A DNA stretch of 12,108 nucleotides from an uncultured Porticoccus sp. (GTDB lineage: Bacteria > Pseudomonadota > Gammaproteobacteria > Pseudomonadales > Porticoccaceae), in the NCBI GenBank assembly GCA_950063125.1, contig CATLZI010000038.1:1-12108 (forward strand). The letters run 5' to 3'. Below, piece after piece: positions 1,116 to 12,108 of this stretch. The notes under the pieces were generated by a model, which was given only the letters and a program-made list of their open reading frames with translations, was not told the DNA's origin and made no database searches. A program made the translations under genes and the position numbers. Positions within the stretch are counted from its first letter, which is position 1; each line of letters starts with the position of its first letter.

Positions 1116-1667
1116 TTAGTCTGCAGGCGAGGTTGAGCGCCCTTTGATTCCATCTCCCAGCTGCAGAGCACTTGGCTCCGTCAAAGACGAATGTCTATCC
1201 AGGACTCCCAGGTCCAGCAAAGGCGAGGCATCAATATGCTCAGCATCCATCATTTGGGCGACTCTCTGTAGCGCAGAAACAATCATGGCCTGCTCCCAGT
1301 CACTGAGATTGGCATACTGGCGTGAAAAATGTTGCTGCAAGGGTGTGGGTGCATTCTTCAAAACATGAACTGCCTTCTCTGTCAAAAAAGCATGCACTTT
1401 GCGTTTGTCTGTCGATGACCGGACGCGGTAAACCAATTGTCGCTTCTCGAGTCGATCAATAATGGTGGTTACCGTTGCCTGACTCAGACTGATTTCGGCA
1501 GCCAGTTCACCAATTGTCACCTGCCCCCGATCACGAATCGCCTGCAGTAACAAAATTTGCGGCACAGTCAGACCGGACGTTTTAGCCAGGCGTTTTGAAT
1601 ATAGGTCTGTCGCCCTGATAACCCGCCGCAGTGCAACCAAGACCTGTTCGATAGAACCACCTCTCAT
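1116..1667 (-). CDS. ectR: MarR-family transcriptional regulator of ectoine biosynthesis (EctR-like)
   Basis: This is a winged-helix DNA-binding protein transcribed divergently from ectABC-ask, the position of EctR1 in halophilic methylotrophs, where EctR1 represses the operon. With the start at 1667 it has 183 residues. An N-terminal helix (about 1-35, IEQVLVALRRVIRATDLYSK) is followed by the MarR core: a first HTH helix near TIGELAAEIS (51-60), the recognition helix LSQATVTTIIDRLEKRQ (61-77) and the wing RVRSSTDKRKV (81-91), which carries the typical D-x-R. C-terminal helices for dimerisation follow, then a tail rich in Ser, Leu and Asp. The frame also allows starts at 1700 and 1742. The 1742 ATG has no Shine-Dalgarno, and its codons would overlap the -35 of the putative ectA promoter. 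The 1667 start gives a family-like length but also lacks a strong ribosome site, so the start is uncertain. A likely operator lies about 95 bases upstream. Confidence 0.85.
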   Translation of the reverse strand: MRGGSIEQVLVALRRVIRATDLYSKRLAKTSGLTVPQILLLQAIRDRGQVTIGELAAEISLSQATVTTIIDRLEKRQLVYRVRSSTDKRKVHAFLTEKAVHVLKNAPTPLQQHFSRQYANLSDWEQAMIVSALQRVAQMMDAEHIDASPLLDLGVLDRHSSLTEPSALQLGDGIKGRSTSPAD

Positions 1668-1735
1668 AATCAATTTATACCGCCCTGTTATGGAATACAT
1701 CCACTCTGTCGCCAGCCCCCAGGGCGGTGCCAAAC

Positions 1736-1763
1736 TGGACATTTTAATGCTTTTGAGTATAAT
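1736..1763 (+). promoter_or_regulatory. Putative sigma-70 promoter of ectABC-ask
   Basis: TGGACA at 1736-1741 matches the -35 consensus in five of six bases. It is separated by 16 bases from a perfect TATAAT at 1758-1763. A transcript would begin near 1770 and give an ectA leader of about 135 bases. The EctR-like palindrome at 1762-1781 overlaps the end of the -10 and the expected start site, which suits direct repression. AT-rich DNA makes chance TATAAT boxes common, which limits confidence. Confidence 0.55.
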
Positions 1764-1781
1764 ATTTAGAGCTCTAATTAT
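1762..1781. promoter_or_regulatory. EctR-type operator palindrome
   Basis: ATATTTAGAGCTCTAATTAT is a 20-base inverted repeat with a perfect 12-base core (TTAGAGCTCTAA, 1766-1777) and one mismatched pair at 1765/1778. As I recall the published EctR1 site of Methylomicrobium alcaliphilum, it is two 8-base half-sites separated by two bases (TATTTAGT-GT-ACTATATA). Bases 1763-1780 here read TATTTAGA-GC-TCTAATTA, with the same spacing and a nearly identical left half. It lies between divergent ectR and ectA and overlaps -10-like boxes on both strands, so it could control both genes. Confidence 0.65.
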
Positions 1782-1782
1782 A
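1777..1782 (-). promoter_or_regulatory. Possible -10 box of the ectR promoter
   Basis: The minus strand reads a perfect TATAAT here, inside the right half of the operator palindrome. Transcription would run toward ectR with a start near 1770 and a leader of about 100 bases to the 1667 ATG. No convincing -35 is present upstream (TTATTT-like at the right distance), so this is tentative. If real, EctR bound to one site would block both divergent promoters. Confidence 0.3.
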
Positions 1783-1806
1783 TAGTTTAATTATTTTTAG
1801 AAATAA

Positions 1807-1847
1807 GGAAGTCATTTTTGGCTTCCAAATAAAATGAAAAATTTTCA
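1807..1847 (+). promoter_or_regulatory. Hairpin and second palindrome in the ectA leader
   Basis: GGAAGTC (1807-1813) and GGCTTCC (1820-1826) form a 7-bp stem with one G-U pair and a six-base loop. Just downstream, TGAAAAATTTTCA (1835-1847) is a perfect palindrome around a central A. Both lie in the AT-rich region between the putative transcription start and ectA. They may be a leader RNA structure, an additional protein site or chance in low-complexity DNA. Confidence 0.3.
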
Positions 1848-1905
1848 CAAGAAAATATTATTTGAGCTATAACTTTTATTAATAACGGGAATTTTGTCAC
1901 TTCTT

Positions 1906-2415
1906 ATGGACCGTAAAATAACACTTCGTCCACCAACGCCGGAGGACGGCGTGCGGGTACACCAACTGGTTGCCCAGTGTCCTCCTCTCGACCCTAACTC
2001 CATCTACTGCAACCTACTGCAATGTACTCATTTTTCAGGTACATCCGTGGCAGCTGACATTGAAGGAGAACTGGTCGGTTTTATCTCGGGTTATCGCCCA
2101 CCACAACAAACCAGCACACTGTTTATCTGGCAGGTCGCTGTCGGCGAAAAAGCACGTGGTCAAGGTCTCGCCTCTCGGATGTTGGTTAATATTCTCGCCC
2201 GCGATGAGTGCAAAGAGGTCGATCACCTTGAGACCACTATCACTGAAGACAATCAAGCTTCCTGGGCATTGTTCCAGGGATTGGCGGACAAATTACAAGC
2301 GCCTCTGACCCAGTCTCCACAATTCGACCGTGAATTGCATTTTGCCGGTCAGCATGACACAGAGGTATTGGTCAGAATCGGTCCATTTAAGCAGCCCGTG
2401 ACCACTGAAGCCTAA
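1906..2415 (+). CDS. ectA: L-2,4-diaminobutyrate N-gamma-acetyltransferase
   Basis: EctA acetylates diaminobutyrate with acetyl-CoA, the second dedicated step of ectoine synthesis in the cytosol. From the ATG at 1906 the protein has 169 residues, normal for the family. It starts with a GNAT strand (ITLRPPTPEDG), then the EctA-specific stretch PLDPNSIYCNLLQ. The acetyl-CoA loop is RGQGLA (about 84-89) after the strand IWQVAVGE, and the family segment LETTITEDNQAS follows. A TTG at 1894 in the same frame would add four residues. A GGGA at 1887-1890 sits only 3 bases before that TTG and 15 before the ATG, so neither is ideally spaced. I prefer the ATG. It is first in the ectA-ectB-ectC-ask order, 27 bases before ectB, and probably repressed by the divergent EctR. 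Confidence 0.95.
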   Translation: MDRKITLRPPTPEDGVRVHQLVAQCPPLDPNSIYCNLLQCTHFSGTSVAADIEGELVGFISGYRPPQQTSTLFIWQVAVGEKARGQGLASRMLVNILARDECKEVDHLETTITEDNQASWALFQGLADKLQAPLTQSPQFDRELHFAGQHDTEVLVRIGPFKQPVTTEA

Positions 2416-2442
2416 TTCCAGAAAGGACTAATTGAGGAAATC

Positions 2443-3804
2443 ATGAAAATTTTTGATGAAATTGAATCTGAAGTACGCAGTTACGCCAGAGCCTTCCCGC
2501 GTTTATTCAACAAGGCCCAGGGCGAATTTATCTATGACGATGAAGGTAACCAATATCTGGATTTTCTGGCCGGCGCCGGCTCGTTGAATTATGGGCACAA
2601 CCACCCGGTGTTCAAGAAAAAACTCCTGGAATATATAGAGCGGGATGGCATTACCCAAGGCCTTGATTTACACACACAAGCCAAAGGTGAGTTTCTGGAA
2701 AGCTTTAACGAGAACATCCTGAAACCCAGGAATTTCAACTATATTGTCATGTTTACCGGCCCGACCGGGACCAACGCAGTTGAGGCATCTCTCAAGATCG
2801 CACGCAAATATACCGGCCGCGAGAACATTATCTCCTTCACCAATGGCTGGCACGGCCAGACACTCGGCGCTCTGTCCGTCACAGGTAACGCGACCCACCG
2901 TGGCGGTGCTGGCATTACATTGCCGGGCGCCACAAGAATGCCTTATGACGGCTATCTCGGTGATGATTTTGATACCACCAATCTGTTGGACAAAGTGTTG
3001 TCAGACTCCAGCAGTGGTGTCGACAAGCCCGCAGCGGTTATCGTCGAAACGGTACAGGGCGAGGGCGGCATCAATGCTGCTTCGATGACCTGGCTCAGAA
3101 GCCTGTCGGAAATCTGCAAGCGCCATGAGGTATTGTTGATTATCGATGACATTCAGGCTGGCTGCGGTCGTACCGGGACCTTCTTCAGTTTCGAAGAAGC
3201 CGGCATTTACCCAGACATTGTCACCCTGTCCAAGTCACTGAGTGGTTACGGTCTGCCATTTTCTGTGGTTCTGATGAAACCGGAGATTGATGAATGGAAA
3301 CCGGGCGAGCACAACGGTACTTTCCGGGGTAACAACCACGCATTTGTCACCGCCAAAGCGGCCATCGACCACTTTTGGAAAGACGACAAATTTGCCAAGG
3401 AAATCCAGCAAAAAGGCGATTACATTGCCGACCGGGTAGACAAGATCGTCAGCGAATACGGTGAAGGAAACTTCAACTCTCACGGTCGCGGTATGTTCAG
3501 GGGCATCAACTGTGTCAGTGGCGAACTGGCTGAGCAGATTACCCGACGGTGTTTCCAGAAAGGGTTGATTATTGAGACCAGCGGTGCGGAGGATCATGTG
3601 GTCAAGTTCCTCTGCCCACTGACAATCCGTCAGGAAAACCTGCAAAAAGGTATCGATATTCTCGAGGAAGCAATCAAGGAAGTCTGTGCCAAAGCAGACT
3701 CCATCCCCGAGGAAAAAGATTTTTTCGAAGGCGATTATTCGGTCAGCGATGAAGTTGACAAGGGCACGCCGAAAAGAAACGGGTCTAACCCGATTTCTGC
3801 CTGA
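2443..3804 (+). CDS. ectB: Diaminobutyrate--2-oxoglutarate aminotransferase
   Basis: EctB is a PLP-dependent class III aminotransferase. It converts aspartate-4-semialdehyde and L-glutamate to L-2,4-diaminobutyrate and 2-oxoglutarate, the entry step to ectoine. The start [19 protein letters not shown] is typical, and GAGGA at 2434-2438 supports the ATG. Visible motifs are [16 protein letters not shown] (cofactor phosphate region), [25 protein letters not shown] with Asp235 expected to contact the pyridine nitrogen, and [12 protein letters not shown] with Lys264 as the Schiff-base lysine. At 453 residues it is somewhat longer than many EctB proteins of about 420-430. The extra part is a polar C-terminal tail after about residue 420 ([19 protein letters not shown]) outside the catalytic core. 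It is followed by an 89-base gap with hairpins before ectC. Confidence 0.97.
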
Positions 3805-3809
3805 TAGAT

Positions 3810-3869
3810 ACCGGGGCCTATCTCCGGTCAATACAGGATATTCACTTATCTGGCGGGGTCAGCCCCGCC
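3810..3869 (+). promoter_or_regulatory. Two stem-loops in the ectB-ectC intergenic region
   Basis: ACCGG (3810-3814) pairs with CCGGT (3824-3828). Further on, GGCGGGG (3852-3858) pairs perfectly with CCCCGCC (3863-3869) around a TCAG loop. The second stem is very stable, ends 24 bases before the ectC ATG and is not followed by a T run. It is therefore more likely an mRNA-processing or stability element, or an attenuating structure, than a strong intrinsic terminator. A role is inference only. Confidence 0.4.
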
Positions 3870-3893
3870 TCGTTACAGACAACCGAGGTCACA

Positions 3894-4298
3894 ATGATAG
3901 TCAGACAACTACAGGAAGCAGAAAAAACCTCTCGCAGAATTGTTTCCCCCGACGGCAACTGGGAAAGCACGCGGATGCTACTCAAAGATGATCAAATGGG
4001 ATTTTCTTTCCACATCACAACAATCTATGCCGGAGCCGATTTCCGTATGCATTACCAAAACCACCTGGAATCTGTTTACTGCATTTCAGGGGAGGGTGAA
4101 GTGGAAACACTGGACGACGGAAAAAAATATTCGATTAGCCCCGGAACCCTCTATATTCTTGATAAGCACGACCGCCATATTCTGCGATCCTTTAAAGAAA
4201 TGACAATGGCCTGCGTCTTCAATCCTCCGCTCAATGGCAAGGAAGTACACAACGCCGAGGGTGCGTATGAGCTGGATGCAGATTCGGTCAGCCAATGA
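3894..4298 (+). CDS. ectC: L-ectoine synthase
   Basis: EctC cyclises N-gamma-acetyl-L-2,4-diaminobutyrate to ectoine with loss of water. It is an iron-dependent cupin-fold enzyme. The 134 residues match the family length. The start [16 protein letters not shown] is characteristic, and GAGGT at 3885-3889 precedes the ATG by four bases. Cupin features include [33 protein letters not shown] in sequence (residues 37-69) and [15 protein letters not shown]. By alignment with the studied Paenibacillus lautus enzyme, the metal ligands should be Glu59, Tyr87 and His95, and all three are present. It is third in the operon, followed after 61 bases by ask_ect. No ectD follows, so hydroxyectoine formation is not encoded in this window. 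Confidence 0.97.
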
Positions 4299-4359
4299 GA
4301 GGCGAGACTCACTCCAGCTCAGGAAAATGGAAAAAGATGCAACAGGAGACAGTCCTTTA

Positions 4360-5799
4360 ATGAGTTTTCACAGTGTGGAAAAAATCGGCGGCACTTCAAT
4401 GAGCAACTATGCCGCTGTCAGAGACAATATTATTCTTAAACCCACAGGCGATACGCTTTATCAGCGTATCTTTGTGGTGTCCGCCTATGCCGGCATAACG
4501 GATCAATTGCTTGAGCATAAGAAAACGGGCAAAGCTGGTGTTTTTGCTTCATTTGCCAATGGTGTCAATGACGATAGCTGGCTGGATCTTCTTAATGAAT
4601 TAAGAACCCAGGTTATTGAAATCAACAGCAATCTATTCGACGATCCGGAAATGCTCGCCGATGCCAACCGGTTTATTGGTGATCGGCTCGACGAGGCCGA
4701 ACACTGCCTGAGCGATCTGAAAAAACTTTGTCAACACGGCCACTTTGCACTGGATGTCCACCTGGCAACCGTCCGCGAAATGCTGGCCAGTATCGGTGAA
4801 GCACACAGTGCCTGGAATACTGCCCGGCTGCTTCAGAGAGATGGTGTCAATGCCTGCTTTGTGGATTTAACCGGCTGGAAAACCACGCGACACATGTCGC
4901 TGGATGAACGAATTAAAGTCACTTTTGAGGACATAGATCTCGAGAGCCAACTACCCATCGTCACCGGCTATGCCCACACTCAGGATGGACTAATGTCCAG
5001 TTTTGACCGCGGTTACAGTGAAATGACGTTCAGCCGTTTGACCGTGATCACGAATGCCCGAGAAGCTGTCATCCACAAAGAGTTTCACCTCAGCAGTGCC
5101 GATCCCCGCATAGTGGGCGACGACAATGCCGTACCCATCGGACGCACCAACTACGATGTGGCTGACCAACTGGCCAATCTCGGCATGGAGGCGATTCACC
5201 CCAAGGCTGCCAAAGGTTTGCGTCAAAACAATATCCCTCTGCGCGTCAAGAATACTTTTGAACCGGAGCACGCCGGGACGTTGATTACCAGTGACTATAT
5301 CAGTGAGAAGCCTCGCGTCGAGATTATTGCAGGGTGTCGGGGAGTTCACGCCATTGAACTGTTTGACCAGGATATGGCCGGCAATTTCAGCCGTTATGAC
5401 ACAACTATCCTGGGGTGTATCAGCCGGTTCAAGGCACATGTGGTTTCAAAGGATATCAACGCAAACACGATCACCCATTACCTGTCTACCAACCTGAAAA
5501 CAGTGAAACGCATTTGTCGTGCACTGGAAGAACAATTTCCCGATGCGGAAATCAATAATCAGGAAGTTGCAATCGTATCGGCCATCGGCAGTGACATGCA
5601 GGTGCCCGGGCTATTGGCCAAAACAGTAGGAGCACTGGCGGAAAAGGATATCAGTGTGTTGGCAATGCACCAGTGCATGCGCCAGGTCGACATGCAGTTT
5701 GTTATCAACCAGGACCGCTGGGAAGATGCCGTACGAAGCCTGCACAGATGCCTTGTTGAGGTACACGATCACGGACGCGCCATATGCCTCGCATCCTGA
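4360..5799 (+). CDS. ask_ect: Ectoine-pathway-specific aspartate kinase (Ask_Ect)
   Basis: This kinase phosphorylates L-aspartate to 4-aspartyl phosphate. As a dedicated copy in ect operons it secures aspartate-semialdehyde supply for EctB. The 479-residue protein starting MSFHSVEKIGGTSM has the Ask_Ect form of the usual KFGGTS motif (Lys8). Further signatures are FVVSAYAGITD, the substrate loop region FDRGYSEMTFSRL, SSADPRIV and AIHPKAAKGLRQNNIPLRVKN. Two C-terminal ACT domains follow (VEIIAGCRGVHAIELFDQD and VAIVSAIGSDMQVPGLLAK). The frame stays open upstream to 4234 inside ectC, but family alignment and AGGAG at 4344-4348 favour the ATG at 4360. The ATG at 4327 has a poorly spaced site. 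In family terms Ask_Ect enzymes escape normal lysine/threonine feedback, which cannot be judged here. Confidence 0.95.
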   Translation: MSFHSVEKIGGTSMSNYAAVRDNIILKPTGDTLYQRIFVVSAYAGITDQLLEHKKTGKAGVFASFANGVNDDSWLDLLNELRTQVIEINSNLFDDPEMLADANRFIGDRLDEAEHCLSDLKKLCQHGHFALDVHLATVREMLASIGEAHSAWNTARLLQRDGVNACFVDLTGWKTTRHMSLDERIKVTFEDIDLESQLPIVTGYAHTQDGLMSSFDRGYSEMTFSRLTVITNAREAVIHKEFHLSSADPRIVGDDNAVPIGRTNYDVADQLANLGMEAIHPKAAKGLRQNNIPLRVKNTFEPEHAGTLITSDYISEKPRVEIIAGCRGVHAIELFDQDMAGNFSRYDTTILGCISRFKAHVVSKDINANTITHYLSTNLKTVKRICRALEEQFPDAEINNQEVAIVSAIGSDMQVPGLLAKTVGALAEKDISVLAMHQCMRQVDMQFVINQDRWEDAVRSLHRCLVEVHDHGRAICLAS

Positions 5800-5844
5800 C
5801 TTGCAAGCCAGCAACCTCTACCCAGTTTTTCGGGACCAACACAC

Positions 5845-5873
5845 CGGGGTGTGCGGTACACTCGCGCACCCCG
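5845..5873 (+). terminator. Strong hairpin downstream of ask_ect (possible end of ect transcript)
   Basis: CGGGGTGTGCG (5845-5855) pairs with CGCGCACCCCG (5863-5873) over 11 base pairs with a single G-U wobble and a 7-base loop. It lies 45 bases after the ask_ect stop. There is no U tract behind it on either strand, so it could be a Rho-associated end, a 3'-end-stabilising stem or an attenuator before the symporter gene. The rest of the 5800-5978 gap shows no gene or convincing promoter. Confidence 0.45.
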
Positions 5874-5978
5874 CCAAATATATCGGGCAAGACCCGACAA
5901 CGCCTTTGGCCTTCCAAACCGTGAATTATCCGATCCTTCGGGTAGTCGCACCGTACCCCTGGACAGCCTGACAGCACC

Positions 5979-7400
5979 ATGATTCTCTCCTTCCTCTGCT
6001 TCCTCTTGATGTTCACCCTTGTAGGGGTTCTCTCCGCAAAGAAAAGTCGGGGAACAAAGCAGGATTATTACCTGGCCAGTAACACCGTCCAGCCATGGCT
6101 GGTTGGGCTGTCCGCTGTTGCCACCAATAACAGCGGTTACATGTTTATCGGAGTAATCGGTTACACCTATGTCGCTGGATTATCGTCTGTGTGGCTGATG
6201 CTGGGCTGGATCAGCGGCGATTACCTCGCCTCTCGATTTGTTCACGCCAGACTCAGGGATGCCGCACCGCGAACCGGTGAAGTGAGCTATGCCGGGGTTA
6301 TCAGCAACTGGTACGGCAAACGAAATTCTGCCCTACAGCGGACCATGGGGTTAATTTCATTGTCGTTTTTACTGGTATACGCCAGTGCCCAGCTGGTCGC
6401 TGGCAGCAAGGCGCTTCATGTTCTATTCGACTGGCCCATGTGGGCTGGGGCGACACTCTCCGCTTTTCTGGTGACCCTGTACTGTATTGCCGGCGGCATT
6501 CGCGCATCAATCTGGACAGACGCGGCGCAATCCATGGTGATGGTTTTAGCGATGGGCTTGCTACTGGTTATAGCCACCAGTTCCCTGGGCGGTGTTGACC
6601 AGGCACTTATCGAGATGGACGCTATCGACGGGTTTATGAGCTGGTTCCCAAGTGATCTGCCTTTCCCGGGTGTACTGGGGGCATTACTGTTCGCCGCCAG
6701 CTGGTTATTTGCCGGTCTCTCAATTATCGGTCAGCCCCACATTATGGTGCGCTTCATGGCACTGAACGATAATCGCAAAATGAACCAGGCACGACGCTGG
6801 TATTATGCGTGGTACGTAATGTTTTATGCCATGGCGACCGCAGTTGGCATGCTTTCGCGGGTATTCCTGTCAGATGCGGCAAGTTTTGATGCCGAGCTCG
6901 CACTACCGGTGTTGGCCCAGGCACTGTTCCCCCCCGTGCTGGTTGGATTAGTGCTGGCAGGTATATTTGCAGCCACCATGTCGACAGCGGACTCACTGGT
7001 TCTCGGCTGTTCGGCAGCCATCACCCACGATCTGTTACCCCACAATGTTGAACGCACCAGTGTCATGAAGGGTATTACTGTGCTCGTAACAGCCTTTGCA
7101 CTGCTATGGGCTTTGCTCAACAGTCAGAGCGTTTTCAGCCTGGTAGTAATGGCATGGTCTGGCCTTGCAAGCGCTTTTGCACCCTTACTGATTATCCTAT
7201 GTCTGGGAGGGAAACCGGGATCCGGAGTGAGCATCCTGGCCGTCTGCTCGGGGCTTCTGGTCGCACTGGGCTGGCGCATGATGGGGTGGCACGATTTCGC
7301 CTATGAGGGCATGCCAGGTATTCTGTCGGGTTTGTTAATCCTGTGCGGAGCCCTTTTTCTATCCAGAAGAAGGGAAGCCCAACTCACTCAATCACTGTAG
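5979..7400 (+). CDS. Sodium:solute symporter family transporter (PutP-like)
   Basis: This 473-residue inner-membrane protein has about 12-13 hydrophobic segments and belongs to the SSS family, which couples sodium entry to uptake of amino acids, betaines, urea or other small solutes. Motifs match PutP-type members: a first membrane segment at 2-20, QDYYLAS then GLSAVATNNSGYMFIG, GGIRASIWTDAAQ (172-184), GQPHIMVRFMA (251-261) and AGIFAATMSTADSLVLGCSAAITHDL (327-352). In PutP the Ser-Thr pair of this last segment (here Ser335-Thr336) lines a sodium site. The substrate is not determined. The first in-frame start after a stop at 5943 is this ATG, with no clear ribosome site. It follows ask_ect by 179 bases and overlaps the convergent alanine racemase gene by 13 bases. 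Uptake of an osmolyte, proline/5-oxoproline or a D-amino acid are all plausible. Confidence 0.9.
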   Translation: MILSFLCFLLMFTLVGVLSAKKSRGTKQDYYLASNTVQPWLVGLSAVATNNSGYMFIGVIGYTYVAGLSSVWLMLGWISGDYLASRFVHARLRDAAPRTGEVSYAGVISNWYGKRNSALQRTMGLISLSFLLVYASAQLVAGSKALHVLFDWPMWAGATLSAFLVTLYCIAGGIRASIWTDAAQSMVMVLAMGLLLVIATSSLGGVDQALIEMDAIDGFMSWFPSDLPFPGVLGALLFAASWLFAGLSIIGQPHIMVRFMALNDNRKMNQARRWYYAWYVMFYAMATAVGMLSRVFLSDAASFDAELALPVLAQALFPPVLVGLVLAGIFAATMSTADSLVLGCSAAITHDLLPHNVERTSVMKGITVLVTAFALLWALLNSQSVFSLVVMAWSGLASAFAPLLIILCLGGKPGSGVSILAVCSGLLVALGWRMMGWHDFAYEGMPGILSGLLILCGALFLSRRREAQLTQSL

Positions 7401-8482
7401 ACCCGCGGAACCCTGCGGGGCATCCTGGTTAACAGCTCATAACTGATCGTACCCGCACAACCCGCCACTTCGTTGACGGAGAGGCCTTTACCCCAGAGAA
7501 TCACTTCATCCCCCACCGCCACCGTCGGCAAGTCCGTGACATCCACCGTTATCATGTCCATAGATACGCGGCCCACCATCGGGCAACGCTGGTTATTGAC
7601 CAGTACCGGTGTGCCATCTGGTGCATGTACCGGATAACCATCGCCGTAGCCGATTGCAACCGTGGCAATCCTGCTGGACCGTTGCGCCGACCAACGCGCA
7701 CCGTAGCCCACTGACTCCCCCACAGGGACATCTCGCAGAGCAATGACCGAAGAGCACAACGTCATGACAGGTTGCAATCTGTCGGCTTCCACATGAGGAA
7801 CAGAAAAAGGAGAACTACCATAAAGCATGATCCCCGGCCTGTTCCAATCAGCGTGGGTCTCCGGCCAACCGAGTAGCCCCGCAGAGTTATCGAGACTCAA
7901 CGGCACGGTATCGGCGTTTGCCAAGCTGGCCACACCTGCCTTGAACTGCTGTATCTGTCGATAAGTCAGATCACTTGCCAACTCATCGGCACAGGCAAAG
8001 TGCGTGGCAATCACAATATCGCTGGCAACATTGCGGCTGGCGGCCAACGTCCGATAGGTAGACTCAATATCGTCAACCGCAATACCCAGTCGGTGCATGC
8101 CGCTATCCACACAAATCCAGACAGTTACAGGGGTTTTCAGCGATGCTCTCAAAATCGACTGTTGTTGCTGTTTATTCACCACTGAGAGCCAAAAACCCAA
8201 TTCAGCGGCCAGAGGTATCTCGTCGTCGGAGAAAGTCCCCTCCAAAAGGCAAACAGGCTTGGTGATGCCCCCTTCACGGAGCTCGACTGCCTCCTCCAAA
8301 CAGGTAACGCCAAAGGCGGGAACCAGCGGCTCAAGGGCGCGAGCAACAGGCAACACACCATGCCCATAGGCATTGGCTTTGATAATGGCCATTGTGCGGG
8401 AATTGGGGGCCAGACCGTTTGCCAACTCGCAATTGTGCCTGAGGGCAAGGAGATCGATATAAGCTTTTGTTGGTCTCGACAT
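7388..8482 (-). CDS. alr: Alanine racemase
   Basis: This cytosolic PLP enzyme interconverts L- and D-alanine. The 364 residues are normal length. The N-terminal barrel carries AIIKANAYGHG with Lys35 as the cofactor lysine and Tyr39 stacking nearby. The other catalytic base is Tyr260 in SVGYGARW. Typical segments are CVDSGMHRLGI, AIGYGDGYP, VGRVSMDMITVDVT and the C-terminal ISYELLTRMPRRVPRVY. The ATG at 8482 has a GGTGA upstream at a workable distance. It is the last gene of the minus-strand operon, 41 bases after the aminotransferase gene. It could make D-alanine for the cell wall, but the partners suggest it feeds or drains a D-amino acid pathway, as catabolic DadX racemases do. Sequence alone does not separate the Alr and DadX roles. 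Confidence 0.95.
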   Translation of the reverse strand: MSRPTKAYIDLLALRHNCELANGLAPNSRTMAIIKANAYGHGVLPVARALEPLVPAFGVTCLEEAVELREGGITKPVCLLEGTFSDDEIPLAAELGFWLSVVNKQQQQSILRASLKTPVTVWICVDSGMHRLGIAVDDIESTYRTLAASRNVASDIVIATHFACADELASDLTYRQIQQFKAGVASLANADTVPLSLDNSAGLLGWPETHADWNRPGIMLYGSSPFSVPHVEADRLQPVMTLCSSVIALRDVPVGESVGYGARWSAQRSSRIATVAIGYGDGYPVHAPDGTPVLVNNQRCPMVGRVSMDMITVDVTDLPTVAVGDEVILWGKGLSVNEVAGCAGTISYELLTRMPRRVPRVYSD

Positions 8483-8523
8483 AACGCTTTCACCAAAAAG
8501 TACAGGCGGGCTGATGCACTCGA

Positions 8524-9381
8524 TTAATAATTAAACTTACCAGCCGTATAAATGCGCTGAGCAGCCAGCCAGACATCGCCCACTTCCCCGCCACCGACGG
8601 ACCTGCCATCGACTTCAATGACGGGCACCAGTTCTTTTGAGGAACTCGTCAGCCAGATTTCGTCCGCATTGAGCACTTCTTCCATTGAGACAGGTCGTTC
8701 CTGCACGGCAATAGATCCGTCTTTGCGCAGTAGCTCCAACAGAATATGGCGGGTAACTCCCGGTAATTTCTGGCTATCCAGCACTGGAGTAATGACTTCG
8801 CCGTTTTTAACGATGTAGGCATTACAGGCACTGGCTTCTGTCAGCTCACCTCGCTCATTGAACAGCAGAATTTCATCAGCACCCTGCTGAAAACCCTGCT
8901 GAAAGTGCATGACGTTACCCAGCAATGCAGTGGACTTGATGTGGCAGCGATCCCATCGCAAATCGCGATCAGTGATAACCCGGTAGGGTTTAACCCGATT
9001 TTTATCGGCCACCGGTGCAGCGGGAATCACATAAGTAAAAGCAAAAATGGTAGGGGTTATATTTTCCGGGTAAGCATGAAAACGGCGGACATCGGCGCCG
9101 CGACTCACATGCAAATAAAGGCCGAGATTACCACCACCATTTTTATCGATGAGTGTATTACAAACCGTGCGCCACTGGTGTTGCGACCAGTCAAGTGTTA
9201 AGTCAATGGACCTCAGACCGTTCAGCATCCGCTGCATATGCAGTGAAAAACCGACGATCTTGCCATCATAGGAGGGCAACACCTCATAAATACCATCGCC
9301 AAACAAAAAGCCCCGATCCATCGGCGAAATACGGGCTTCGGCCATTGGCAGATAGGCACCGTCGAGATAAACAATACTCAT
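8524..9381 (-). CDS. dat: D-amino acid aminotransferase (D-alanine transaminase, class IV)
   Basis: This class IV PLP transaminase moves amino groups between D-amino acids and 2-oxo acids, typically D-Ala + 2-oxoglutarate to pyruvate + D-Glu. From the ATG at 9381 it has 285 residues and begins MSIVYLDGAYLP, with AAGGTAA just upstream on the coding strand. An upstream start at 9438 would add 19 residues that do not resemble the family. Motifs are DRGFLFGDGIYEV (Tyr32 corresponds to Tyr31 of the Bacillus YM-1 enzyme), R-F-H at 100-102 corresponding to its Arg98/His100 carboxylate trap, RWDRCHIKS with Lys149 as cofactor lysine, TEASACNAYIV and LPGVTRHILLELL. The R-x-H pair and the GDGIYEV start favour a D-amino acid enzyme over branched-chain transaminase or aminodeoxychorismate lyase. 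It sits between the cyclase-like gene and alr. Confidence 0.88.
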   Translation of the reverse strand: MSIVYLDGAYLPMAEARISPMDRGFLFGDGIYEVLPSYDGKIVGFSLHMQRMLNGLRSIDLTLDWSQHQWRTVCNTLIDKNGGGNLGLYLHVSRGADVRRFHAYPENITPTIFAFTYVIPAAPVADKNRVKPYRVITDRDLRWDRCHIKSTALLGNVMHFQQGFQQGADEILLFNERGELTEASACNAYIVKNGEVITPVLDSQKLPGVTRHILLELLRKDGSIAVQERPVSMEEVLNADEIWLTSSSKELVPVIEVDGRSVGGGEVGDVWLAAQRIYTAGKFNY

Positions 9382-9438
9382 TAAGTTACCTTGTATCTCG
9401 CCGAAATAAAGCGGGCCAGCGGGGTCATAAAGCGGCAA

Positions 9439-9467
9439 ATCTTAGCAGTGGGTACCCAGACAGGCAA
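9439..9467 (-). promoter_or_regulatory. Weak candidate internal promoter upstream of the D-amino acid aminotransferase
   Basis: On the minus strand TTGCCT (9462-9467) and TAAGAT (9439-9444), each matching consensus in four of six bases, are spaced by 17 bases. The pair lies in the 116-base gap between the cyclase-like gene and the aminotransferase. The spacer contains the perfect palindrome TGGGTACCCA (9449-9458). It could allow dat-alr to be expressed apart from the pxp genes, but two 4/6 boxes are easily found by chance. Confidence 0.2.
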
Positions 9468-9497
9468 AGTAAATTCCCCAGCAACTCAGCCTGGACC

Positions 9498-10352
9498 CTA
9501 AACACCGCTAACACCGATCAAATCACGCAACGCATTAACCAGAGCCTTGCCCGTTTCACTGGGCAGGCCGTCTTCTGTCAGTGTGTTATCGAGGGTAACG
9601 CCATCGATACTGCCCCGACAGGCCAGGTATTCAAGTATGGCCCGGTTATCCCAGTCCGTCAGATAGTCTTCTCCAGCACAATAGGACATCATGGCCACCA
9701 AGCCGAGTGCCGCCCAGTTCGATACATCCGCTATCACCAGCTCGTCACAGGTGGTTACCGACGGAATAATGGCCAGCTCACTGAGTTTATCGAGCACATT
9801 ACCCATGCCGATCTCATTGCCACCATCACCCAATGCAATGACCGGACAATTCGAAAGCTCAAGAAAGACATCAAAGCAGAGGGTGCCGGAGCTGATATCC
9901 TCGCCGCGCATATTGTAATAATGTCCGTCAGCTGCGGGCCCGGGAAGTTCGATACTGACCATGAGCTCTGGCTGGCAATACGCTAACAGGTCGGCCACCT
10001 GCTGGCTGAGCCCTGTGGGACGACCAAGGGACACGCGCTCCACGCAATAATCACCGCCTATGGCATTAGCCAATACATCGCCACAAACCAGTATCGGCTC
10101 GGCACCGGTCTGTTCAAGCACTCGATAAAGAGCAATTGCGCCGGCCGGTCCATCGGACTCAAACGTGTCCAGCACAGGAAAACCCGTACCGATCAATACC
10201 CGGCCAGAACAACTCAACAACCGTCTGGCTGCCCGCAGACAGTAGCCGGGTTTAAGGCTGGACTGAACGGATTGCATTCCCCGCAGATTGCGAGCCACCA
10301 GCAGGTTTTCAATGCTTTTACTAACTGCCAGCTCACGCCGAATATCATTCAT
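9498..10352 (-). CDS. Stand-alone DUF4392 / D-glutamate cyclase-like protein
   Basis: This 284-residue soluble protein matches the C-terminal domain family (DUF4392) of the mitochondrial D-glutamate cyclase DGLUCY, which converts D-glutamate to 5-oxo-D-proline and water. Motifs recognised are GTGFPV (55-60), ESDGPAGAIAL (65-75), an acidic/glycine segment ELPGPAADGHYYNMRGEDIS (135-154), GDGGNEIGMG (175-184) and ADVSNWAALGL (208-218). The other DGLUCY domain (DUF1445) is absent from this protein and from the visible neighbourhood. In the relatives I recall, the third motif reads E-R-P-G; here it is E-L-P-G. The ATG at 10352 follows GGTGG closely. It lies 21 bases after pxpC, so it is probably co-transcribed with the 5-oxoprolinase genes, which fits 5-oxoproline as the product. 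The family call is fairly safe, while the exact reaction is inferred. Confidence 0.78.
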   Translation of the reverse strand: MNDIRRELAVSKSIENLLVARNLRGMQSVQSSLKPGYCLRAARRLLSCSGRVLIGTGFPVLDTFESDGPAGAIALYRVLEQTGAEPILVCGDVLANAIGGDYCVERVSLGRPTGLSQQVADLLAYCQPELMVSIELPGPAADGHYYNMRGEDISSGTLCFDVFLELSNCPVIALGDGGNEIGMGNVLDKLSELAIIPSVTTCDELVIADVSNWAALGLVAMMSYCAGEDYLTDWDNRAILEYLACRGSIDGVTLDNTLTEDGLPSETGKALVNALRDLIGVSGV

Positions 10353-10373
10353 AAGCCACCAATAAATTAGCCC

Positions 10374-11315
10374 TCAGTCACAAACCTCGGGGTTTATTTG
10401 TCTGTACATGCTGTCCGCCGCCAGCCGAATGTGACGAGCCTCCGCCATCGTGACGGACTTAAAAGATACCAGACCACCCGGTTTTAATTGCGCCAGTTGT
10501 GACATATCCAACGACATCACCGAACCCAGCTTCGGGTAACCACCGATGGTCTGACGATCATGCATCAGTATGATAGGCAAACCATCCGGTGGGATTTGTA
10601 TTGCACCCAAGCAAACACCTTCGGATAAAAGATCGGGAATATCAATATCTATGGGTGGCCCCGCCAACCGACATGCCATCCGGTCGGACTGACTCAACAA
10701 TCGATACTCACTGGCAAAAAAATGCTGCTGCTGGTCGTTTGTAATCAATTCTGACTGGTAACCACTCACCACCCTCAAAATTACGCGGCCACCATAAACC
10801 GGTCGATAGCCACGTGCCAGCGAGAGGCATTGACGACTAGAGGTGGCTGCACAGGGTAAATGATCCCCAGCCTGCAGCGGATTACCGGACAAGCCTCCCA
10901 CGCCTTCGCGAACGACCGTCGCCGTACTGCCGAAGGTTGCCGGGATATTGAAGCCATCAGCCACCGCCAAATAGGCACGCATACCCCTGCGGGCATAACC
11001 CAACGCCACCCTGTCACCGGATTTTACCCGTTGGCTACGCCAGCTCTCCTTTGGTTGTCCGTTAATGGTCAGTGGCATATCTGCACCACAGAGGGCAAAA
11101 ATCGTGTCTGCCTGGCATTCAAGTTCCAGACCGCCAATGGTCACTTCAAGAGCCGTTATGCCGCGATCATTCCCGCACAACCGATTGGCCCAATTGAAGG
11201 CAAGGGGATCGGCCGGACCACCGGTGGTCAAACCAAACCGGTTATGGCCGAAGCGGCCTGCATCCTGGAGAAGAGTCAGGACACCGGGGCGATTCACACG
11301 AAAACCACCTTTCAT
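10374..11315 (-). CDS. pxpC: 5-oxoprolinase subunit PxpC (biotin-dependent carboxyltransferase-like, KipA family)
   Basis: PxpC is one of three subunits of the ATP-dependent prokaryotic 5-oxoprolinase that opens 5-oxoproline to glutamate. The 313-residue protein shows the family start VNRPGVLTLLQDAGRFGHNRFGL in sequence and then GGPADPLAFNWANRLCGN. The middle has ALEVTIGGLELE and FALCGADM, followed by YLAVADGFNIPATFGS, VREGVGG and LQAGDHL. C-terminal motifs are DRMACRLAGPP, LLSEGVCLGAIQIPPDGLPIILMHDRQTIGGYPKLG, all usual for PxpC/KipA. Its ATG overlaps the pxpB stop by four bases (ATGA, 11312-11315), implying translational coupling and equal subunit supply. The gene is complete. The same family was historically annotated as allophanate or urea-carboxylase related, but adjacency to pxpB and pxpA makes 5-oxoprolinase the better call. 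Confidence 0.93.
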   Translation of the reverse strand: MKGGFRVNRPGVLTLLQDAGRFGHNRFGLTTGGPADPLAFNWANRLCGNDRGITALEVTIGGLELECQADTIFALCGADMPLTINGQPKESWRSQRVKSGDRVALGYARRGMRAYLAVADGFNIPATFGSTATVVREGVGGLSGNPLQAGDHLPCAATSSRQCLSLARGYRPVYGGRVILRVVSGYQSELITNDQQQHFFASEYRLLSQSDRMACRLAGPPIDIDIPDLLSEGVCLGAIQIPPDGLPIILMHDRQTIGGYPKLGSVMSLDMSQLAQLKPGGLVSFKSVTMAEARHIRLAADSMYRQINPEVCD

Positions 11316-11992
11316 GCTAACCGGCCACCTCTGGCCAGAAAGGTTTCCCGATTGATACTGAAAAAGCGTACCCGGTCACCCACCTGAAGCGGCATACCGG
11401 GTTCGCTGAGGGGATCGAACATCCGCTCCGGACAAAGGCCAATCAAATTCCAGCCACCGGGGGAGTCCACCGGATATACTGCAGTCTGTCGCCCGGCTAT
11501 ACCCACGCTACCGCGGGGCACCAAAGTCCTGGGTGTATCCAGTCTGGGCATGACAATGCGCGAATCAACCTCCCCAAGGTAGGCAAAACCCGGTGCAAAA
11601 CCTATCGCATACACGAGGTATTCCCGGGATTGGTGCAGAGCGATCACCTCCTCCACCGAGACCTTTTTCACGCGACTGATTTCGGCGAGATCCGGCCCGG
11701 ACTCCATGCTGTAGTAAACAGGCAATTCAACGAGTTTGCCGTCTGAACTGGAGGCAGCTGGTGCGGCATCCAGCATTTCTGTAATCTGCTGCTCAAGGGT
11801 TGCGGCATCGATACACGAGAGATCGAAAATAACCAGTAGCGAGGCATAGGAGGGCACCAGATCAATCAGCACATCGACTAACGCGGACTCCAGCACAGCC
11901 GTTGCCTGTCGAACCCGAGCTGACGTATCCGCTGTCACCACCTGCTCAAAATAGATGATCAGCGCATTTTCACTAGCGGGAACGACTTTCAT
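11312..11992 (-). CDS. pxpB: 5-oxoprolinase subunit PxpB (KipI family)
   Basis: PxpB is the KipI-like subunit that works with PxpC and PxpA in ATP-driven opening of 5-oxoproline. The 226 residues are typical. The N-terminal half (1-80) is the variable alpha/beta part starting VVPASENALIIYF. The conserved C-terminal domain carries ELPVYYSMESGPDLAEI (89-105), YAIGFAPGFAYLG (128-140), PRGSVGIAGRQTAVYP (159-174) and SPGGWNLIG (177-185), the hallmark segments of this family. Its start ATG at 11992 overlaps the pxpA stop by four bases, and its stop overlaps the pxpC start the same way, so the three genes form one translational unit. The Bacillus homologue KipI also inhibits a sporulation kinase, but that role is not expected in a gammaproteobacterium. 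Confidence 0.94.
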   Translation of the reverse strand: MKVVPASENALIIYFEQVVTADTSARVRQATAVLESALVDVLIDLVPSYASLLVIFDLSCIDAATLEQQITEMLDAAPAASSSDGKLVELPVYYSMESGPDLAEISRVKKVSVEEVIALHQSREYLVYAIGFAPGFAYLGEVDSRIVMPRLDTPRTLVPRGSVGIAGRQTAVYPVDSPGGWNLIGLCPERMFDPLSEPGMPLQVGDRVRFFSINRETFLARGGRLA

Positions 11993-12108
11993 TGCTCAAG
12001 CAATGCCCGGATTTCACGAATCACCGCGACGCTTTCCGGATTATCCCCATGAATACACAGGGTATCCGCTTTAATGAACAGCGAGTCGCCATCCTCGGTG
12101 GTAACCGA
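11989..12108 (-). CDS. pxpA: 5-oxoprolinase subunit PxpA (LamB/YcsF family), C-terminal 39 residues only
   Basis: The frame is open from the right window edge to a TGA at 11989-11991 and translates to a 39-residue C-terminus. It contains DSLFIKADTLCIHGDNP followed by an amphipathic helix ending in REIRALLEQ. The segment resembling D-T-L-C-x-H-G-D-x-P is the characteristic end of the LamB/YcsF (PxpA) family, normally about 250 residues. Most of the gene therefore lies beyond the window. The TGA overlaps the pxpB ATG by four bases. Together with pxpB and pxpC it completes the three-subunit ATP-dependent 5-oxoprolinase. The operon promoter must lie further right. Confidence 0.88.
   Translation of the reverse strand, partial: SVTTEDGDSLFIKADTLCIHGDNPESVAVIREIRALLEQ

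Follow-up and report, generated by a model that had tools for sequence, protein, structure and literature searches.

A conserved gammaproteobacterial gene order joins 5-oxoprolinase, putative split D-glutamate cyclase and D-amino acid aminotransferase genes in an uncultured Porticoccus

The prokaryotic 5-oxoprolinase PxpABC is encoded in operons of the ycsF type. In animals, D-glutamate cyclase holds both of its domains in one chain, and we take the mitochondrial enzyme DGLUCY to be the relevant system for comparison. In some bacteria without the glutamate racemase MurI, D-amino acid aminotransferase (Dat) is the source of D-glutamate. In the present study, we analyzed a window of 12,108 nucleotides from an uncultured Porticoccus sp., which constitutes the entire contig C38 of genome G000 (78.5% complete). 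The window carries genes for PxpABC, a PF14336 (DUF4392) protein, Dat and alanine racemase (Alr) on one strand. We estimate at roughly 0.5 the probability that it represents the downstream part of a gammaproteobacterial D-glutamate operon, in which Alr and Dat would provide supply and a split cyclase together with PxpABC would provide disposal.

The gene order was compared in two sets of loci, which were counted separately and share some records. PF14336 was present in 21 of the 58 genomes searched, G000 included. The order DUF1445-pxpA-pxpB-pxpC-PF14336-dat was observed in 17 of the other 20, and alr came next in 16 of these 17. The three deviants were G039 (pxpA-PF14336-dat-alr), G028 (the locus stops inside a pxpC::PF14336 fusion) and G003. 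The latter retained intact pxpABC, dat and alr (92-96% identity to the G013 genes), and both of its cyclase halves were broken: of DUF1445, no more than the final 96 residues were found, and the PF14336 gene contained a stop and a frame change. Since G003 is a draft assembly, this loss is suggestive only. The second set was obtained by a profile scan of named genomes, which returned at least 584 relatives; the best 80 were used, and as all of these resemble the query, the named loci are biased toward close kin. The closest among these best 80 were a Cellvibrionales record and Porticoccus records. Counting was restricted to loci whose flanking sequence ran for 4 kb or more upstream or 5.5 kb or more downstream. 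On the upstream side, DUF1445 was found in 63, pxpA in 67 and pxpB and pxpC each in 68 of 69 loci; on the downstream side, dat was found in 56 and alr in 26 of 62. Across the phylum, PF14336 was uncommon (11 of 397 sampled genomes, G000 included). The correlation of pairwise gene distances was r 0.64-0.81 within DUF1445-pxpABC-PF14336, 0.46-0.64 with dat and 0.07-0.42 with alr. These results demonstrated that the DUF1445-pxpABC-PF14336-dat order is widely conserved in Gammaproteobacteria, that alr is an optional neighbor and that the arrangement is not due to chance. A preliminary description of this DNA had suggested checking whether the order pxpA-pxpB-pxpC-DUF4392-dat-alr is conserved across genomes, and the conserved order bore it out, with alr as the optional member. 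On the same strand upstream of DUF1445, a stand-alone tRNA-editing gene (YbaK/ProX-like) or proS, whose product contains the same editing domain, was seen at 10 loci each, with some records counted twice (for example, L024:4935-5558, L082:4833-5354 and L150:3892-5622).

Within the order to which the window belongs, we surveyed 283 genomes, all at least 95% complete except G000. A close dat was defined as a match of at least 300 bits and proximity as the same contig within 6 kb; the dat of G647, in two pieces, was scored as close by summing the pieces. PF14336 exceeded its cut-off in 45 genomes, with G503 (19.6 bits, under the cut-off) excluded. A close dat lay within 6 kb in 43 of these 45 (exceptions, G502 and G595) versus 3 of the 238 others, namely G001, G020 and G046, none of which gave a MurI match. 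DUF1445 was likewise detected in 43 of the 45, both misses (G000 and G619) being at contig ends; it lay within 6 kb of PF14336 in 40 genomes and elsewhere in G039, G502 and G525. No MurI, or only a weak match to it, was found in 32 of the 45 genomes with PF14336 versus 36 of the 238 others, and in 35 of the 46 close-dat genomes, while a dat match (E up to 1e-40) was found in 58 of the 68 MurI-less genomes. For these counts, 11 genomes with MurI matches of E 8.5e-15 or weaker were treated as MurI-less, and G471, G106 and G629, with better matches, were scored as MurI-bearing, giving a total of 215 versus 214 from the profile count. None of the 37 genomes with DUF1445 and no PF14336 was MurI-less. 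Fisher tests, in which kinship was ignored, gave 9.6e-45 for PF14336 with dat, 1.4e-13 for PF14336 with MurI absence and 3.6e-23 for MurI absence with dat. In genus g284, two genomes (G479 and G568) had PF14336 and no MurI match and three (G536, G552 and G584) showed the reverse, and this switch within a genus argues that the association was not one event. In the set of 58 relatives, 11 of the 21 PF14336 genomes lacked MurI above the cut-off. A murI fragment in G011 was considered as gene decay and rejected: the match ran to position 10236 of a contig of 10239 bases, and because the fragment was cut by the contig end, G011 was not counted as a MurI loss.

The same data bear on the view that this is a loose housekeeping neighborhood, in which metabolite repair by pxpABC and wall supply by dat-alr are merely adjacent and share no pathway. 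PF14336 and a close dat co-occur almost one-to-one, the order is maintained across many genera and G003 lost both cyclase halves, so that mere adjacency is highly improbable. It would be consistent with the nearly uncorrelated alr distances, with a gene family (its tested member a LysR regulator) that in 27 of 101 clustered loci lies close to PF14336 and dat or separates them, and with the occurrence of both dat-alr without pxp and pxpABC-alr without dat. G046 carries pxpABC, a phosphoribosyltransferase-like gene, dat and alr, with neither cyclase half.

The gene preceding pxpA in relatives belongs to PF07286 (DUF1445); it is the next gene upstream in the closest ones and would fall outside the window, beyond the contig end. 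A profile search did not find PF07286 in G000, of which 78.5% is covered and whose contig ends inside pxpA. Pfam gives PF07286 the name D-glutamate cyclase and NCBIfam calls it 'putative hydro-lyase'; PF14336 is 'D-glutamate cyclase-like, C-terminal' in Pfam. As D-glutamate cyclase figures in both Pfam names, the relatives' operon appears to encode both cyclase halves, flanking pxpABC as separate genes. In four PF14336 proteins, no further Pfam family was listed at E up to 10. Single-frame pxpC::PF14336 fusions were found at 5 loci. Such fusions, together with the best distance correlations lying in the DUF1445-pxpABC-PF14336 block, would suit an oxoproline repair system, in which D-glutamate and L-glutamate or glutamine cyclise spontaneously and PxpABC, with DUF1445 and PF14336 as accessory or specificity subunits, reopens both enantiomers, sparing D-glutamate for the wall with no drain; a DHH-like metal-enzyme fold would also suit a phosphorylated intermediate. 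We regard repair as quite unlikely, as both families are named by Pfam for D-glutamate cyclase and the DUF1445-PF14336 pair occurs without pxp nearby at three loci (the rest of those genomes was not searched for pxp): L062 and L063, also without dat nearby, and L166, with dat and a LysR gene.

Several unusual PF14336 genes were also observed. At L060:2680-13401 (G328), an open frame of 3573 aa that matched PF14336 twice and DUF4781 once lay directly downstream of a same-strand DUF1445 gene, and at L064:3577-7815 (G441), a protein of 1412 aa ended C-terminally in PF14336, the remainder being without a Pfam match. In L148, from one metagenome-assembled genome, PF14336 and dat were each broken into two frames, for which sequencing errors are possible. 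In L168, the single rhizobial record opened, a DUF4392 relative of about 26% identity was accompanied by dehydratase, RidA and hydroxy-acid oxidase genes near a bhc glyoxylate cluster; this relative probably serves another function.

What was observed directly is the identity of the genes, their order, their co-occurrence, the fusions and the breakdown of both cyclase halves in G003. From family names and pathway knowledge we infer the substrates, the direction, a physical complex and the role as a drain. Alr would convert L-alanine to D-alanine, and Dat would convert D-alanine and 2-oxoglutarate to D-glutamate and pyruvate. Together, they would supply D-alanine and D-glutamate for peptidoglycan, alone in genomes without MurI and alongside MurI in the window genome. 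DUF1445 and PF14336 would form a two-subunit D-glutamate cyclase, a split form of the animal enzyme, which would turn surplus D-glutamate into 5-oxoproline, and PxpABC with ATP would convert 5-oxoproline to glutamate. As the preliminary description pointed out, such a route would need PxpABC to accept 5-oxo-D-proline or an inversion step. The disposal module would sit where D-glutamate arises, made by Dat in most carriers of the order and derived from muropeptides at scavenging loci.

The supply part of this proposal was examined through alr and dat. The operon alr was the single alanine racemase match in G000 (78.5% complete), and in the single-contig genome G008 the sole alr and the close dat were both in the operon, with a full-length MurI match. 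Moreover, dat-alr occurred without PF14336 or DUF1445 in the MurI-less genomes G001, G014, G020, G031 and G046, and in the first four of these without PxpB as well. Since genomes with a close dat tend to lack MurI and the operon alr is the sole racemase found, dat-alr here probably serves, in part at least, as a peptidoglycan supply set. The opposite proposal of the preliminary description, a salvage pathway rather than a peptidoglycan supply set, is not supported by these findings. The idea that PF14336 and PxpABC replace MurI was rejected as unlikely, as the same five MurI-less dat-alr relatives have no PF14336.

Six loci placed the cyclase genes in a different context. At L059, the DUF1445-PF14336 block adjoined genes for NamZ, a kinase::MurQ-like protein, RpiR and an SSF transporter; at L063, DUF1445-PF14336 stood beside GH3, kinase::MurQ-like, SSF and RpiR genes; and at L061, GH3, kinase::MurQ-like and SSF genes were present. 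GH3 was located upstream in L157 and in L167 and L169, the two opened of five listed Pseudoalteromonas replicons. L157 belongs to the order of the window, and the other five are from other gammaproteobacteria. The names NagZ-like, MurQ-like and MurR-like for such genes are our assumption from domain content. These murein-catabolism neighbors pointed to the scavenging of muropeptides and hence to D-glutamate as the common substrate. Together with the retained gene order, they upheld the earlier suggestion of a conserved unit revolving around D-glutamate and 5-oxoproline. Near the cyclase pair, an FAD/Fe-S dehydrogenase gene, presumably YdiJ-like, was seen at L063:8818-11652, L167:735-3581 and L169:1-2249.

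The six loci would also fit purely catabolic salvage, the general view of the preliminary description. In this reading, environmental or murein D-glutamate and D-alanine would be degraded: Dat would convert D-glutamate and pyruvate to 2-oxoglutarate and D-alanine, Alr would yield L-alanine, and the cyclase and PxpABC would yield L-glutamate. However, queries for GH3, NamZ, kinase-MurQ, SSF and YdiJ gave no match in any of the 80 named loci (tblastn at E up to 1e-15 with half the query covered); a weak RpiR match was seen at one of them (L136). A purely catabolic dat-alr is also hard to see where a close dat goes with a missing MurI and alr is the sole racemase copy found. Salvage alone is therefore an unlikely explanation.

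Several observations weigh against an operon for D-glutamate supply and disposal. The model for PF14336 shows an apparent likeness to metal-dependent DHH phosphoesterases and is no obvious cyclase, and if PxpABC yielded D-glutamate from 5-oxo-D-proline, the cyclase and PxpABC would form a futile cycle. Dat missed both curated D-amino-acid transaminase cut-offs (232.8 versus 320 bits for NF005209 and 205.1 versus 277.45 bits for TIGR01121). The alr link is loose, its distances showing next to no correlation (r 0.07 with pxpA and 0.11 with dat), and in the MurI-bearing genomes G018 and G033, pxpABC adjoins alr without the cyclase or a close dat. Ten of the 68 MurI-less genomes gave no dat match, and the association counts take no account of phylogeny. 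Finally, 13 of the order's 45 genomes with PF14336 have MurI, and it is intact in G000, where both cysteine regions align to a solved glutamate racemase; draining Dat-made D-glutamate is therefore not the sole need. A more specific version of the supply-and-disposal reading is tentative and on balance doubtful: bacteria in which Dat replaced MurI would carry a D-glutamate valve, a split DGLUCY (DUF1445 and DHH-fold PF14336) complexed with PxpABC, PxpC and PF14336 forming a single chain in some, which would drain D-glutamate or restore it in an ATP-dependent manner and so let an unregulated Dat serve the wall.

The genes of the window were identified by Pfam and NCBIfam profile scans (Table 1).

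Table 1. Operon genes in the window and the profile matches supporting them
Gene	Product	Coordinates	Strand	Support
pxpA	5-oxoprolinase subunit A, LamB/YcsF family; C-terminal 39 codons and stop, truncated by contig end	11989..12108	-	PF03746 match at profile C-terminal end; NF003816
pxpB	5-oxoprolinase subunit B	11312..11992	-	PF02682 231.6 bits; TIGR00370 177.5 vs cut-off 145.55 bits
pxpC	5-oxoprolinase subunit C	10374..11315	-	PF02626 284.8 bits; TIGR00724 264.4 vs cut-off 230.2
PF14336 (DUF4392)	Stand-alone 284-aa homologue of D-glutamate cyclase C-terminal half	9498..10352	-	214.5 vs cut-off 27.9 bits
dat	Class IV aminotransferase, probably D-amino acid	8524..9384	-	PF01063
alr	Alanine racemase	7388..8482	-	TIGR00492 357.2 vs cut-off 168 bits

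The six same-strand genes with short gaps named in the preliminary description were each backed by these scans. All six identities were right; because the window is the whole contig and ends inside pxpA, only five of the genes are complete. In relatives, pxpA is full-length (for example, L024:6549-7286). PxpC scored under the NF045499 cut-off (219.5 versus 500 bits). The closest PDB relatives of Dat were D-amino acid aminotransferases (4pbc, 4m0j, 9pxs and 3daa), and in alignments with the first three, the IKS lysine region and the R-x-H stretch, whose role we assume from general knowledge, were matched. On this sequence evidence, Dat is best named a D-amino-acid transaminase and was filed as a class IV aminotransferase, probably D-specific. 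The pxpA/pxpB and pxpB/pxpC overlaps were at most 4 nt, and the gaps were 21 nt between pxpC and PF14336, 113 nt between PF14336 and dat (ATG start) and 41 nt between dat and alr. Against congeners at 89-98% protein identity, the five complete genes had ratios of nonsynonymous to synonymous substitution rates (dN/dS) of about 0.07-0.18, with five congeners for alr, dat and pxpC and four for PF14336 and pxpB, where one was lost to an N; a sixth, L028, was saturated and excluded. Scans of positions 7300-12108 found 2 promoter-like sites versus 3.9 in shuffles, each on the plus strand, and 6 terminator-like sites versus 4.8, neither above chance. Window positions 1116-7400 hold an ectoine cluster with a MarR-like regulator, ectABC (names we assume), an ectoine-type aspartokinase and an SSS transporter, and it stands beside the operon in several congeners. 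The SSS gene converges on alr with a 13-nt tail-to-tail overlap (7388-7400). A functional tie to the operon was rejected: the overlap recurs in congeners such as L023-L027, yet ectoine matches were absent from the stretches of others such as L030, L033, L036 and L039.

If the supply-and-disposal reading is true, the operon would offer a tractable bacterial context for DUF1445, DUF4392 and the D-glutamate cyclase of animals, itself poorly understood; it would link both families to whether MurI or Dat makes the D-glutamate of the cell wall, and the question of L or D substrates of oxoprolinase would become approachable with few purified proteins. The operon suggests that the making and disposal of D-glutamate are handled together. 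Each family is known; as far as these tools show, and judged by genome comparison rather than the literature, their joint arrangement, and its link with the absence of MurI, look new. As in ycsF-type operons, PxpA, PxpB and PxpC are encoded together in order (pxpA being partial in the window and complete in relatives), with DUF1445 upstream in relatives; the difference is the addition of PF14336 and dat. Among 14 control genomes, PF07286 was found in one (B. subtilis) and PF14336 in none. As in Dat-dependent MurI-less bacteria, Dat occurs with Alr and carriers often lack MurI, whereas here both are coupled to cyclase and oxoprolinase genes and the window genome keeps MurI. As in DGLUCY, both domain families are present in the relatives' operon; DGLUCY is one fused protein, whereas here the two are separate genes flanking pxpABC, known from sequence alone.

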